The notes beneath the pieces were generated by a model. It was not told the DNA's origin, did not search any database, and was given only the letters and a program-made list of their open reading frames with translations. Of a stretch of DNA of 64,000 nt, positions 48,721-52,924 are shown piece by piece. Where the stretch lies: NCBI RefSeq assembly GCF_000210075.1, contig NC_021017.1, positions 1,500,566 to 1,564,565 of the forward strand, given 5' to 3'. How positions within the stretch are numbered: the stretch's first letter is position 1; the number at the start of each line of letters is the position of its first letter. Both the position numbers and the translations under genes were made by a program. The stretch is from Bacteroides xylanisolvens XB1A (lineage in GTDB: Bacteria; Bacteroidota; Bacteroidia; Bacteroidales; Bacteroidaceae).

Positions 48721-49029
48721 CTATAACTCTTCGATCATGCTTAAAGGTAAATCAGTACATTCGGCAATAGATTGGTTGTCTATCCCTTTGGCTTTCATGT
48801 TCCGGGCTATTTGTAGTTGGGCTTTTTGGGCGCCTTCTTTCATCCCTTTTTGTTCAGCTGCATCCATTGTCACCAAATAATCGCGGTACACCTTGACGCT
48901 ATTGTCGTATCGCTCCCTGTCTTCCGGAGACATAGAAGCTACATCGGCGATATCTTTCAATTTCTCGAAGACAGCTTTTCGTGCCTTGAACGGCAAGATA
49001 GGTCGAACTAAAATCTTATTTCCACTCAT
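48721..49029 (-). pseudogene. C-terminal fragment of a PD-(D/E)XK Rpn/transposase-like protein
   Basis: 102 residues. From about residue 13 the sequence LPFKARKAVFEKLKDIADVA followed by SMSPEDRERYDNSVKVYRD is the C-terminal tail of the Bacteroides PD-(D/E)XK nuclease-family transposase group (PF12784). The nuclease domain is missing. The first dozen residues come from the end of the overlapping NYN gene (14-bp overlap). Probably a truncated remnant left where the NYN gene was joined. Confidence 0.7.
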
Positions 49030-49639
49030 CCGGGCGTTCTATTACATATCCGTTTGGTAGCTGCACTTTTTGGGGCAATATATGTTTCTTGAATATATTA
49101 AAAGCGCCATCAAGTTTACGTGTGCCATCACTTAGGTTCGATAAATTAGATGAATATCTGTTAGGAGGAAAATATACATAGACCTTTTGTAACGGGTTAA
49201 ATTCTCTTATCAGCTCTACAGGTGGTATTAAATCGCTGTCTGCTGATACAATGATAGCAATGTCACAGCGCTTTTTATAGGCGTCCGACAGAATCTTTGT
49301 AGCTATTCGTACATCTGTCTCTTTTTCTTCAAAAGAATGAATGATACCACCACAATAACGGCATTTAATCTCTTTTTTGAGGTATTTACCCAATATCAAG
49401 TTAAATTTAGGGTTACATTTGTTTGCTTGAAATAGTTTATCTTGCCTATCGTGTTTGCCTGCATCTGTTGGACGAGCTGAAAAATAATTGACTTCTACCA
49501 ATTCTTGATAGGACTTTAGAAAACTATTAAAGAAGCTGACTAAATCCAGCCAATAACACATTTTCCATTTTTTAGACTTCAGCCCGTAATAGAAATTAAA
49601 ACCGTCTACATAGACTATTACTTTCTTTTTGTCTTCCAT
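49016..49639 (-). CDS. NYN-domain (PIN-like) RNase
   Basis: 207 residues. A NYN/LabA-like metal-dependent RNase fold: D12 (in YVDGFN), D109 (in ETDVRIA), D134 and D136 (in SADSD) form the acidic site. An inserted knuckle, C93-x2-C96 with H101, could bind zinc and contact RNA. The gene is preceded by its own promoter and a hairpin-terminator RNA only 20 nt before the ATG. It overlaps the Rpn remnant downstream by 14 bp. The family cuts RNA in stress, defence or phage contexts; the target is unknown. Confidence 0.85.
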   Translation of the reverse strand: MEDKKKVIVYVDGFNFYYGLKSKKWKMCYWLDLVSFFNSFLKSYQELVEVNYFSARPTDAGKHDRQDKLFQANKCNPKFNLILGKYLKKEIKCRYCGGIIHSFEEKETDVRIATKILSDAYKKRCDIAIIVSADSDLIPPVELIREFNPLQKVYVYFPPNRYSSNLSNLSDGTRKLDGAFNIFKKHILPQKVQLPNGYVIERPDEWK

Positions 49640-49651
49640 AGCGTTATATAT

Positions 49652-49718
49652 AAAAAAAACCCATCTTTAATTGATGGGTCAGCCTTAGTATTTCTCAACT
49701 AAGGGGGGGTAATTTGTA
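49652..49718 (-). ncRNA. Candidate short structured RNA/attenuator ahead of the NYN RNase
   Basis: From the promoter at 49722-49752 a transcript would start near 49716. It would fold a 7-bp hairpin (49683-49689 with 49698-49704), then a 7-bp terminator hairpin ACCCATC/GATGGGT (49659-49679) and a run of eight U, about 65 nt in all, stopping 12 nt before the RNase ATG at 49639. This could be a leader attenuator or a free small RNA. The layout of promoter, small RNA, terminator and RNase resembles type III toxin-antitoxin loci, although tandem repeats are absent. Confidence 0.55.
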
Positions 49719-49721
49719 CCA

Positions 49722-49752
49722 CAAAGGTACAAATCTTTTTTAGAATAACAAA
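49722..49752 (-). promoter_or_regulatory. Promoter of the small RNA and NYN RNase
   Basis: On the minus strand TTTG (49749-49752), 19 nt, TACCTTTG (49722-49729): a full consensus match. The -7 box lies inside a perfect palindrome, ATTTGTACC (49712-49720) with GGTACAAAT (49726-49734), so a repressor could cover it. Confidence 0.75.
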
Positions 49753-49957: not shown

Positions 49958-51007
49958 TTATCTTCCCCTGATTAGCTTTTTCAGTGTCCCGTTGTATGTG
50001 TTTTCAAATTCCGTCGGATGATTGAGCGCCCAAAGAATGTAATCACCCGGTTCGTTCTTTTTGAGTAGGGTAGGGCGGTATTGGGAACTAAGGATTTTCC
50101 ATAAAATCCCGCCGGGACCTCCCAGTTCTTTACGTCGGGCAAGGGCGGCAATCGCTTTCACTGTCTGTTCGTTCCGGATACCGATTGTTTGCATATTTAG
50201 TAGAAGTATAGCTTCCGATCCCCCTCCCGTTTGCATCCCTTCCGAAATCGTTTTCGGAGCTGTTTCTAAGACTGTTCCCGGAGCTGTTCCCGGAGCTGTT
50301 TCAGAAATTGTTTCAGAAACCGTCTCCGCAGTAGATTCCGTTTTTTCTCTTCCAATCGATTTATCCAAAGACAAACCCTCTACAACGACAGGCGAAGCCT
50401 GAAAAACGCTGTTTGACGGAACGGGCGGCATTATCCTCTCATTCTTTTTTTCGCATTTTCCTTGTCTCTCTGTCTCTTTGTCTTTTTTGATTTCAGATTT
50501 GCTCTCATTTTCCATATCCATTTCCTGTTTACCTTTGATATCTGTATCCGTTTCCTCTTTTGTTTGTGGCATTGTTGTAGCAAAATCATGGGATTCTGTT
50601 ACATCTTTAAAATCTTCCTCGATAAGCCAGAAATGTTCCAGAGGTAATTTGTATTTTCTCCGGCTGTCGGTGATGATTTTATGATATTGTTCCTGAATGG
50701 CCTGTGAGGTCAATACACCGTACTCCTTATATATAAGATTGTCGAACAGCCCCACCGCCAGGCAATCATCAATGATGGCCTGCATTTCCTCCTCCTCGCA
50801 ACACGCTTCCTGGGCGATGTCGAAGAGCGTGTCTTTGTTCCACGAAATATAATAACCTTTCTCTTTATAAATGAGGCAAAGCAGTGAAGTGAGCGCAGCA
50901 ATCCCTGCCGCATGGTGGCGACAGGAGATGCGGCGTACTTTTCTGTCCTGCAGAAAATTGACATCGAGGGGAAAATAATCTAATCCGGGTTTGGAAATGC
51001 GGGCCAT
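49958..51007 (-). CDS. Lin1244/Lin1753-like (DUF4373) domain protein
   Basis: 349 residues. The N-terminal about 130 residues (ARISKPGLDYFPLDVNFLQD, YISWNKDTLFDIAQE) are the Lin1244/Lin1753 domain found in phage- and island-borne replication-type proteins. The middle is low-complexity: a charged stretch (KEETDTDIKGK onwards) and a run of short repeats of the type ETVSETISETAPGTAPGT (about 225-255). The C-terminal about 85 residues look folded again. Found in Bacteroides accessory regions; possible DNA-binding role. It is downstream of the amidase and HNH genes on the same strand. Confidence 0.75.
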   Translation of the reverse strand: MARISKPGLDYFPLDVNFLQDRKVRRISCRHHAAGIAALTSLLCLIYKEKGYYISWNKDTLFDIAQEACCEEEEMQAIIDDCLAVGLFDNLIYKEYGVLTSQAIQEQYHKIITDSRRKYKLPLEHFWLIEEDFKDVTESHDFATTMPQTKEETDTDIKGKQEMDMENESKSEIKKDKETERQGKCEKKNERIMPPVPSNSVFQASPVVVEGLSLDKSIGREKTESTAETVSETISETAPGTAPGTVLETAPKTISEGMQTGGGSEAILLLNMQTIGIRNEQTVKAIAALARRKELGGPGGILWKILSSQYRPTLLKKNEPGDYILWALNHPTEFENTYNGTLKKLIRGR

Positions 51008-51054
51008 GATGATAAATTACTGATTGTAAATAATTGATAATAAATAACTGATAA

Positions 51055-51498
51055 TTATTGAATAAACTCCGCTTTTACATCGAAGCAGGGGCAGGATTTT
51101 ATATACTCGTTCGGTGAGATAATACCGTCTCCATTAAGGTCGGGACTGGTGTCCCGATGTCCTATCACCTGTTGCAGAGAAGGGAAGACAAGGCGCAAAT
51201 CTTCTACCAGCCGGACAAGTGCTTCACGCTGCGCTTCCGTTCGTGTGTCGGCAGGCCGACCGTTCCTGTCCAGTCCGCCAATGTAGCAGATACCGATAGA
51301 CCGATGATTCCATCCCGTGCAATGTGCTCCGTCGAGGGCAACATCCCTTCCCGGTTCAACCGTGCCGTCGAGACGGACGACGAAGTGATAACCGATAGAA
51401 CGGAAGCCGCGTTGACGATGCCAGCGGTCGATGTCGGCAGCGGTAAAATCCTGTCCCGCACGAGTGGCGGAACAATGGATGATGATGGTGTCTCTCAT
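51055..51498 (-). CDS. N-acetylmuramoyl-L-alanine amidase (Amidase_2, T7 lysozyme-like)
   Basis: 147 residues, full single-domain length. IIHCSATR at the start, GYHFVVRLDGTVEPGR, GICYIGG and IGHRDTSPDLNGDG are the hallmark blocks, with zinc ligands in IIHC, GHRD and the SCPCFD end. It cuts the amide bond between MurNAc and L-Ala in peptidoglycan. No signal peptide, so phage-like release or transfer-associated use is likely. Its start overlaps the stop of the HNH gene by 4 nt (ATGA). Confidence 0.92.
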   Translation of the reverse strand: MRDTIIIHCSATRAGQDFTAADIDRWHRQRGFRSIGYHFVVRLDGTVEPGRDVALDGAHCTGWNHRSIGICYIGGLDRNGRPADTRTEAQREALVRLVEDLRLVFPSLQQVIGHRDTSPDLNGDGIISPNEYIKSCPCFDVKAEFIQ

Positions 51499-52250
51499 TG
51501 TGAAATCCTCCTTTCTTGTTTGCGTATAGTAGGGGAGGTGAATCCGAAGGCGGCAGCCTCCTCTGCAGACAGTTGACGGTAATATTGCTTTGTCACCGAG
51601 TGGTGCACCGGAGTGAAGGGAGCGTGAATCGGTGGTACAGCCGTATCCGTTATTGCCAATGAGTTTAAAAAGACAGGCAGTTGTGATAAAGCCGATGAAT
51701 TGGCAAAGGGAACTTTCATGAAATCGTTTCCCCGATGTTGCCTTGCACGTAGGTTATGTAGCCATACACGATCCGGATGTTTCAGTTGCAGGATGAGCCA
51801 GTGTTGGTGTGACGGTTTCAGGCGTTCCTCTCTGCCCATTTCTTTCATAGACGGGTAGGCACGTAAAATGATTCCTTTCGCATCCGTTACGGCGCAGGGA
51901 GCTTTACGGGAACCTGTTCCGGTGGGGCGTAATCCTGTGCGGATGGCGTGCATCGTGTTGGTGTATGCATCGCACCATTCAAGGTTTGACACGTGGTTGT
52001 TCATTGTGTTTCCGTCAAGGTGGTTTATTTGCGGCAGATGTTTCGGGTTCGGAATAAATGCTTTGGCAATTAAGCGGTGGACGTTGTAATCGGTACAAAT
52101 TCCTTTATTCAGGAGTGATACCGTTTCATAACCGGTTCCGATGATTTTAGTGCAAAGAATTAACTTCGATTTGCCCTTGAAACTCAATACCCGCCCATGA
52201 TCTGAAATCATATAGTCGGGGTTTTCTTCAATAAATCTCCAATTTTCCAT
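51495..52250 (-). CDS. NUMOD4-HNH homing-type endonuclease with C-terminal extension
   Basis: 251 residues. A NUMOD4 motif (about 3-55, WRFIEENPDYMISDHGRVLS) and an HNH motif (H58, then H77 in INHLDGN and N85-N89 in the NNHVSNLEW block) match phage-type HNH nucleases. From about residue 180 there is an extra segment (for example VPPIHAPFTPVHHSVTKQYY, then LSAEEAAAFGF) not usual for this family; it may derive from another small gene by fusion. It is coupled to the amidase by a 4-nt overlap and preceded by the 23-bp repeat array. Confidence 0.85.
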   Translation of the reverse strand: MENWRFIEENPDYMISDHGRVLSFKGKSKLILCTKIIGTGYETVSLLNKGICTDYNVHRLIAKAFIPNPKHLPQINHLDGNTMNNHVSNLEWCDAYTNTMHAIRTGLRPTGTGSRKAPCAVTDAKGIILRAYPSMKEMGREERLKPSHQHWLILQLKHPDRVWLHNLRARQHRGNDFMKVPFANSSALSQLPVFLNSLAITDTAVPPIHAPFTPVHHSVTKQYYRQLSAEEAAAFGFTSPTIRKQERRISQ

Positions 52251-52323
52251 ACTTGATACTGATAAATGTTAATAAAATTATACTCTGTTAAAAAATAGTC
52301 GCTTCTCTGAATTTGGCAAGGAG

Positions 52324-52414
52324 AAACGGCGTTTCCTGCATCTGTTAAACGGCGCTTCCTAGTGTGGAAAAGCGGCGTTTCTTGTATGTGTTAAACGGCG
52401 TTTCTTGCTGTCTT
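52324..52414. repeat. Four-copy 23-bp tandem repeat with a palindromic core
   Basis: The core AAACGGCGTTT (or close variants with CGGCG) recurs with exact 23-bp spacing; CGGCG starts at 52327, 52350, 52373 and 52396. Each core is a near-palindrome (AAACG, G, CGTTT). The array lies between the 74-residue ORF, whose 3' end it overlaps, and the HNH gene start. A period of about two helical turns puts all copies on one DNA face, as in protein-binding iterons or operators. Confidence 0.8.
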
Positions 52415-52583
52415 CATCTTGCTCTGTAGGAGGTTCGAGCCGTTCGGCACAGTGAATGAGAAATTCTAATTCTTCTCGGCAACCTTGAATCGCTTCTTGC
52501 AGGGAGTCTACATTATACTGTCTGCAAAGAGCTTCCCACTCTTTTCGTTCTTGCAGGTTCATCCTTTTTTCCTGTAGATTCAT
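52359..52583 (-). CDS. Small hypothetical protein overlapping the repeat array
   Basis: 74 residues, helical and acidic in the middle (WEALCRQYNVDSLQEAIQGC, ELEFLIHCAERLEPP), basic at the end, which is coded within the 23-bp repeats. The ATG overlaps the stop of the DUF2693-like gene by 4 nt (52580-52583). There is a second Met at residue 8. Not recognised; coupling supports it being real. Confidence 0.55.
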   Translation of the reverse strand: MNLQEKRMNLQERKEWEALCRQYNVDSLQEAIQGCREELEFLIHCAERLEPPTEQDEDSKKRRLTHTRNAAFPH

Positions 52584-52924
52584 TCCACTTCGATATCCAG
52601 AAAATTTTCAGCATGAAAGGTGCGCCAGCCTTTGGCATCGATGTCGTAATAGACGACAAATGTGTTCTCCGGTTTCGGTGTGTACGGGCGGCGGAAACTA
52701 TGTTCGTAGCCGATGAGTGTGCCGGTGGCACGACGGATGGTTCCATCCTGCTTGGTATATCGGAAACAGACGTTTCCGTGATGCATTTGTCGGATAAGCT
52801 TTCCTATCCGGTGAGCCGTGACGAGTGCATCGTGTCGGCTCATGCCATTACTTTGCCGGATGACAGCGGCCTGCTTCATAAGCCGTATCCGTTGAAGTGA
52901 ATGATTCTTTTTGATTTCAGTCAT
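52580..52924 (-). CDS. DUF2693-like SH3-fold small protein
   Basis: 114 residues. A basic helical N-terminus (about 1-50) is followed by a small beta-barrel region (VCFRYTKQDGTIRRATGTLI through GWRTFHAENFLDIEVE), the pattern of Bacteroides DUF2693 proteins carried on islands and prophage-like regions. Possibly a DNA-binding accessory protein. It is the first gene of the minus-strand run toward 49958. Confidence 0.7.
   Translation of the reverse strand: MTEIKKNHSLQRIRLMKQAAVIRQSNGMSRHDALVTAHRIGKLIRQMHHGNVCFRYTKQDGTIRRATGTLIGYEHSFRRPYTPKPENTFVVYYDIDAKGWRTFHAENFLDIEVE

Follow-up and report, generated by a model that had tools for sequence, protein, structure and literature searches.

A conserved small structured RNA beside NYN-domain nuclease genes of Bacteroides and other bacteria: a candidate RNA-nuclease module

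The 64,000-nucleotide stretch of Bacteroides xylanisolvens XB1A DNA that was analysed (the window) contains, on its minus strand, a gene for a NYN-domain ribonuclease preceded by a promoter sequence, two hairpins and an intrinsic terminator (Table 1). These features had been listed in a preliminary description of the same DNA, namely a TTTG element separated by 19 nt from TACCTTTG, a palindrome, the hairpins, eight U residues and a gap of 12 nt between the T run and the ATG of the NYN gene (49639), and all of their coordinates proved to be exact. The 3' end of the small RNA is set by the T run, and its 5' end is predicted to lie a few nt past the -7 box.

Table 1. Positions of the genes and sequence features at the NYN locus of the window
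Feature	Position in the window	Strand	Basis or remark
NYN-domain RNase gene, 207 aa, candidate toxin/effector (PADLOC HEC-09)	49639-49016	-	Pfam NYN, HEC-09 profile
Small structured RNA, proposed RNA antitoxin/partner, ~65 nt	49652..49717	-	Alignment A1, covariation, model R1
Hairpin 1, 7 bp, CCUUAGU-UGAGAAAU-ACUAAGG	49683..49704	-	5/7 pairs changed on both sides
Hairpin 2 (terminator stem), 7 bp, ACCCAUC-AAUUAAA-GAUGGGU	49659..49679	-	4/7 pairs changed on both sides
Eight-T run of the intrinsic terminator	49652..49659	-	First T doubles as last hairpin base
Seven-C run before and into hairpin 1; ACCCC element	49703..49709	-	
Bacteroides-type promoter, TTTG (49752-49749), 19 nt, TACCTTTG (49729-49722)	49722..49752	-	
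Perfect 9-bp inverted repeat, 5-nt spacer, over the -7 box and start site	49712-49720/49726-49734	none	

Taken alone, the promoter pattern is weak evidence, with four matches in the window against 1.18 expected and as many in 1 of 100 shuffles. The folding of the leader gave a z value of -3.17, and 1 of 200 shuffles was equally good. The genome itself contains one full copy of the leader and four short weak matches, together with one further weak match (24.9 bits) to the RNA model R1, which was built with the window sequence among others and scores the window RNA at 81.9 bits. In most close relatives the loop of hairpin 1 reads UGAGAAA or UGGGAAA. The inverted repeat is a possible operator; inspection by eye showed it, clearly or in part, in the closest relatives (L044 and L045); it was absent from L006 and L008, and other dyads were seen in L009-L014 and L016. 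As judged from these sequences, the 9-bp palindrome is a local feature that is not conserved beyond close relatives.

In the window the C run comprises seven residues, and in L044 and L060, two almost identical copies, it comprises six; slippage can change the length of homopolymer C runs such as this one. Antisense pairing of the C run with the NYN mRNA was considered and rejected, GGGG being present near the start in just 1 of 16 loci. The end of the NYN gene is overlapped by a C-terminal fragment of an Rpn-type PD-(D/E)XK nuclease (48721-49029), which corresponds to positions 199-272 of 273 of TIGR01784 with a score below the family cut-off. Upstream of the locus (49958-52924) lies a prophage-like remnant with a replication initiator (Lin1244_N), an amidase, a WYL_2-type protein and weak HNH/NUMOD4 matches.

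The NYN protein was further analyzed at the level of sequence and predicted structure. NYN (4.5e-12) was the only Pfam family matched, and residues 5-207 aligned with positions 2-203 of the 203 positions of the PADLOC profile HEC-09 (6.9e-65). The acidic residues D109, D134 and D136 are present in all 77 relatives considered below, and D12 in all 76 relatives that have a residue at that position. For the AlphaFold2 model (pLDDT 93.6) the best solved fold match was 2qip, an uncharacterised Vibrio protein, and the NYN domain of MARF1 was among the five PDB fold matches at E < 0.001. The modelled PIN-like fold and the conserved acidic residues are thus those of a NYN nuclease, and the protein is, from its sequence, a probable RNA-cutting enzyme. 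PADLOC-DB lists HEC-09 as a candidate defence protein, by itself and with no description, the HEC label presumably denoting candidates embedded in Hma defence systems. A PADLOC comparison of 136 neighbour ORFs with 79 control ORFs found defence-profile matches in both and did not separate the NYN loci from the controls.

The NYN gene is rare in the genus of the window (8 of 158 genomes, at E up to 1e-6), and HEC-09 was detected in 45 of 395 genomes of the phylum (E up to 1e-20). Relatives were also found in 327 plasmid records and 2 phage records, and the family as a whole extends over many phyla, tiny plasmids and a few phage contigs. The relatives compared here were drawn from genome contigs (37 loci), genomes of the genus, the 395 phylum genomes, plasmids and phages, and their subgroups were assigned by match scores rather than by a tree. 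Clustering of 99 located proteins at 80% identity gave 77 relatives. Proteins of <180 aa that were broken, partial or at contig ends (L034, L036, L042, L050, L051, L087, L090, L093, L104, L110-L112, L118 and L120) were left out, as were exact duplicates, overlapping fetches, L071 (the same place as L121) and the weak homolog L041.

The preliminary description had made its proposal of an RNA linked to the nuclease depend on conservation of the hairpins and terminator upstream of homologous genes, and the proposal survived this comparison. A two-hairpin terminator ending at most 45 nt from the start codon was observed in 51 of the 77 relatives versus 10 of 256 control genes (Fisher p = 1.6e-30), the controls being other ORFs, by our own calls, of the same loci including the 64-kb window. 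With the added demand of a run of at least three C at the 5' side/hairpin 1, the counts were 32 of 77 versus 1 of 256. Among the cases at 0-45 nt, the median distance from the terminator hairpin to the start codon was 18 nt. Seven of the 77 relatives were scored as "neither" by the script, and in four of these (L033, L045, L100 and L109, the others being L102, L113 and L123) an RNA is nevertheless evident on reading the DNA; conversely, same-strand script matches lie inside mis-called starts in L021, L023, L037, L088 and L092, and are probably false in L080, L115 and L125. When the DNA was read by eye, no such RNA was visible before the NYN gene of L113, L115, L123 and L126, and a single hairpin was present in L102. 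In L025 (1142-1260), a third hairpin, a strong terminator, lies between the two RNA hairpins and the NYN gene.

Leaders of the window type are present in relatives from Bacteroidota and Ignavibacteria with 48-76% protein identity, and since they are conserved there with compensatory changes, the leader goes beyond chance. Among more distant NYN relatives, including those on 3.5-kb plasmids of Enterobacteriaceae, the layout is kept and the sequence is different; the RNA sequence differs greatly among the distant subgroups, and no single model finds all of them. A -7 box reading TAnnTTTG or TAnnTTG was located 10-33 nt before the C run in 19 of the 20 window-type loci with a measurable gap (23 loci were read, of which L007 has no box and L047-L049 have an unmeasurable gap; the box of L015 is TAnnTTG).

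Covariation of the hairpins in homologous loci, the check recommended in the preliminary description, was found for both hairpins in two sets of RNAs. In the first set (A1), consisting of 17 window-type leaders, 95.8% of the pair cells are standard and 9 of 14 pairs are changed on both sides. None of 500 shuffles was as good in four of the five measures, and 37 of 500 reached the value of the fifth (further pair types). The second set (A2) includes 15 RNAs from several families of the phylum (six from the family f18), from Thermus and from two actinobacteria; here, 96.2% of the pair cells are standard, 14 of 16 pairs are changed on both sides, and the corresponding results for 500 shuffles were none as good in four measures and 2 of 500 in the fifth. 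Common to both sets are a 5' single strand of ACNNC type, a hairpin 1 whose loop contains UGAG or UAG, a short linker that is often CYGAC, and the terminator hairpin, a likeness that was judged by eye, neither of the RNA models having been shown to find the other set. Rfam at gathering score gave no match in the window. At E up to 10, the segment 49600-49800 gave 18 weak matches, the best with E 0.56 and none of them abiF (RF03085), and no credible Rfam match was obtained at the RNA of 7 loci, 3 AbiF-type loci and 15 further loci.

In one subgroup of NYN genes, from which the A2 RNAs come, the RNA is encoded on the opposite strand (L020, L022, L064, L066 and L069-L084), with the NYN start codon 24-68 nt from the beginning of hairpin 1 and with the terminator pointing away from the NYN gene. 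In view of this orientation, the RNA constitutes a separate gene, and an attenuator role alone cannot account for it. Opposite-strand script matches were common among the control genes (45 of 256, versus 32 of the 77 relatives), and the divergent subgroup therefore rests on covariation and not on that count. All 16 intact NYN genes of the subgroup (E up to 1.2e-81) have the RNA, initially recognised by direct inspection of their DNA, and 12 of these 16 were used to build the corresponding model, R2.

The RNA and the NYN gene appear to be lost unequally. Among the 395 phylum genomes, R2 identified 43 RNA copies in 36 genomes: 16 beside an intact NYN gene, 9 beside a broken or partial one, and 18 beside none in the stretch read, so that 27 of the 43 lack an intact NYN gene (in L183, one of the 18, the NYN side is off the contig). 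The R1 model matched in 7 of the same 395 genomes; three of the matches adjoin NYN, one adjoins a broken NYN gene (L165), one has no NYN (L166) and two are weak (L196 and L197). Within the genus, 12 copies were found with R1 (E up to 3.3e-5), of which four accompany intact NYN genes, one a broken and one a truncated NYN gene, and three precede AbiF genes; the remaining copies are L188 and L193, both without NYN, and the weak match L192. Pairing in the second-type RNA reaches 89.6% without NYN versus 95.2% with NYN, and in hairpin 1 it holds in 84.0% of the cells of orphan RNAs versus 92.3% beside NYN. Since pairing is lower in RNAs without NYN, some of the orphans may be relics. In L167-L187, several orphan RNAs lie beside restriction-modification or AbiE-like genes (as judged by eye) or beside matches to DUF3800 or AbiJ_NTD4, and these genes are possibly further partners or possibly the scars of defence islands.

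The window-type RNA is not confined to NYN genes. In three genomes of the genus (G002, G037 and G143), it ends 15-17 nt before an Abi_2/AbiF ORF; the G143 protein (L190) matches Abi_2 at 1.7e-54, and those of G002 and G037 are 100% and 97% identical to it, respectively. AbiF occurs in 26 of 99 genomes of the genus, mostly with another RNA. Among 30 AbiF loci fetched, the window-type model matched at the gene in L199 and L200 only, and the Rfam abiF model (RF03085) was detected in 10 of 15 AbiF loci searched, the exceptions being L199, L200, L201, L202 and L225. The AbiF genes of L201, L202 and L225 have similar upstream hairpins, at which the Rfam abiF model remains below its gathering score. 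AbiF is reported to be a toxic HEPN RNase that is neutralised by direct RNA binding (PMC12373285), the RNA being located between a promoter and a terminator ahead of the gene.

The second-type RNA is likewise found, in divergent orientation, beside two DUF3800 genes (L173 and L178) and two genes matching AbiJ_NTD4, one below and one above the Pfam cut-off, at distances of 38-64 nt. These genes are possibly partners of the RNA or mere neighbours. DUF3800 motif RNAs are small RNAs called after the genes they accompany, and Rfam includes such motifs; two NYN-type RNA copies do lie beside DUF3800 genes, but the match to DUF3800-I (E = 6.2) was not significant.

Copies of the RNA were also found in phages. 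Scans of IMG/VR with RNA patterns identified six contigs, in which the NYN gene is intact (L257), a fragment (L254) or, in four, unmatched. The RNAs of L255, L256, L258 and L259 match the models at 37.9-72 bits. In L259 the RNA adjoins baseplate hub and wedge genes, and in L255 portal and terminase genes are located ~7 kb from it; the phage-family genes of L258, for an HNH endonuclease and an ATPase, are several kb distant, and the 4.2-kb contig L256 carries a Ro60-like gene and an apparent tRNA 3' end. A third RNA pattern, scanned in the viral contigs, gave no matches. In the phage collection there was no match to the L256 RNA, and the L255 RNA matched only MT836335.1. The latter record ("Bacteriophage sp."), a 99% copy, was not counted as phage evidence; it may be a bacterial fragment, because it is colinear with the window over ~7 kb and also matches a more distant part.

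A further phage copy is that of Thermus phage phiLo (178.5 kb; recorded host T. thermophilus HB8), which has a complete RNA (64.6 bits). From the RNA terminator up to roughly codon 25 of NYN, its DNA shares 97% identity with a locus on a Thermus oshimai plasmid; beyond that point, the phage frame departs and then stops. By eye, the promoter of the phiLo RNA reads TTGACA-17-TATAAT, the plasmid having TTTAAT. When the Thermus NYN protein was used as a query against the phage collection, three records were returned, phiLo not among them. This pattern is what would be expected of a phage that took up an antitoxin RNA to escape the toxin, and it could alternatively be a relic of chance recombination. 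Mimicry of a type III RNA antitoxin (ToxIN) has been reported for phage PhiTE (PMC3475682).

In 2 of the 5 phage loci that carry the RNA without an intact NYN gene, a TROVE/Ro60-like gene is located near the RNA (phiLo, L260 1206-2714; L256 1355-2764), with Pfam TROVE values of 1.7e-6 and 3.4e-13, respectively. Elsewhere, Ro60 binds small RNAs.

The interpretation that we favour, with moderate confidence, is that of a two-component RNA-nuclease module, akin to type III toxin-antitoxin or defence systems, consisting of a NYN nuclease and a single-copy RNA. Because the RNA stays beside the enzyme in many bacteria and because phages carry the RNA without an intact enzyme, the comparisons suggest that the RNA is an antidote that holds the NYN enzyme in check. 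In this proposed scheme, the strong promoter would give rise to a short two-hairpin RNA, with transcription mostly stopped at the terminator, and rare read-through would supply the NYN RNase (the other subgroup has the RNA and nuclease genes in divergent orientation). Present in abundance, the RNA would bind the RNase and keep it inactive. If the balance were upset, by phage infection or by loss of the locus, the RNase would be freed to cleave cellular RNA and growth would stop, as in a putative defence role; phages with the RNA but without the enzyme would neutralise the enzyme by mimicry.

The main rival explanation, to which we assign a rather low probability, considers the RNA to be a positive cofactor, forming with the NYN protein a ribonucleoprotein in which the RNA would guide or activate the cleavage of foreign RNA. 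The tight association in either orientation, and the RNA beside all of the intact NYN genes of the divergent subgroup, fit such a cofactor as well as they fit an antitoxin, and AbiF has been described as linked to the origin of RNA-guided Cas13 (PMC12373285). A variable, guide-like stretch is nevertheless lacking within either set, the single-stranded 5' part being of the conserved ACCCC or ACAUC type, and retention of the RNA beside broken NYN genes and in phages without NYN is not expected of a cofactor.

It is improbable that the leader is an attenuator of NYN transcription that has no action in trans, in which a ligand, translation or NYN itself would control read-through. Such an attenuator accounts for the order of promoter, hairpins, terminator and ATG in the window and for the start-proximal terminators of 51 of the 77 relatives, but not for the divergent RNA of one subgroup, for the RNAs without NYN in genomes and phages, or for the same type of RNA before another gene family (AbiF). 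The preliminary description had placed the attenuator beside the RNA antitoxin. As a general account, the attenuator was rejected on the basis of the divergent RNAs and the RNAs without NYN, and the RNA antitoxin with its nuclease is the best-supported reading, given a conserved and covarying RNA that occurs in two orientations, is often kept when NYN decays and is present in phages that lack an intact nuclease.

Autoregulation, in which NYN would process its own leader or terminator hairpin and the released RNA would not be inhibitory, is also given little weight. NYN-type enzymes such as Regnase-1 cleave stem-loops, and the hairpins lie on the same strand ahead of the ORF, but this explanation requires a location in cis, which is lost in the divergent subgroup. 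Chance, or the ordinary terminator of an upstream gene, has a negligible probability and is refuted by conservation, for although a two-hairpin terminator of some kind, on one strand or the other, was present in the region for 60 of 256 control genes, the RNA covaries and is conserved in sequence with the nuclease, its terminator hairpin keeps the short spacing to the start codon described above, and it has a promoter box of its own.

In terms of the known systems, the module shares with type III toxin-antitoxin loci (ToxIN, CptIN and TenpIN) an RNA gene that, with its terminator, precedes a ribonuclease gene, as in the window and in the 51 relatives. Further shared features are a sporadic distribution that includes plasmids and RNA copies in phages, for which PhiTE is a precedent (PMC3475682). 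In contrast, its enzyme is a NYN protein by Pfam and fold, and not a toxin of the ToxN, CptN or TenpN families, and one of its subgroups has a divergent arrangement of RNA and nuclease genes. Classical type III antitoxins are tandem repeats, whereas the NYN RNA is a single copy; no direct repeats of at least 12 nt were found in the leaders of the window, L008 or L064. The order of promoter, small RNA, terminator and RNase gene is also that of AbiF with abiF RNA (RF03085; RCd22-AbiFCd of C. difficile), but the window protein is NYN and not Abi_2/HEPN, and the window RNA is not RF03085. By the features examined, the module is thus a member of neither ToxIN, CptIN or TenpIN nor AbiF, and it would work like both if the antidote reading holds.

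The HEC-09 entry of PADLOC-DB represents the same protein, to which the present analysis adds the RNA partner. As in the preliminary description, which knew of no described NYN system of such layout, a search of the open-access literature (preprints outside its scope, subscription papers few) revealed no description of an RNA partner of NYN/HEC-09. HEC-09 was not mentioned among the open-access matches listed, nor in a term search of PMC12629846. An earlier description of a NYN-RNA system elsewhere is possible.

To our knowledge, the RNA-controlled toxins known so far are nucleases of the ToxN type and of the HEPN type (AbiF). The latter are described as such in PMC12373285. If the proposed module is genuine, a PIN-like/NYN nuclease would join them, and HEC-09 would gain a second part that ought to be present in any functional assay. 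A broader and more tentative proposal, possible rather than probable, is that a family of RNA antitoxins has been exchanged among unrelated abortive-infection effectors (NYN, AbiF and possibly DUF3800 and AbiJ-type proteins) and captured by phages as decoys, as illustrated by phiLo, whose copy would have lost the nuclease and kept the RNA together with a promoter. If NYN and AbiF do exchange one RNA type, RNA antitoxins would be modular, and the phage RNA copies without the nuclease would open RNA mimicry to direct study in a named phage, phiLo.

On small enterobacterial plasmids (L061, L063, L124, L129 and L132), an HTH-annotated gene is divergent to the RNA-NYN unit. The two genes have their starts 319-351 nt apart; the three HTH-annotated genes examined match HTH_36/DnaD_N, and the role of this gene may be in replication or in regulation.
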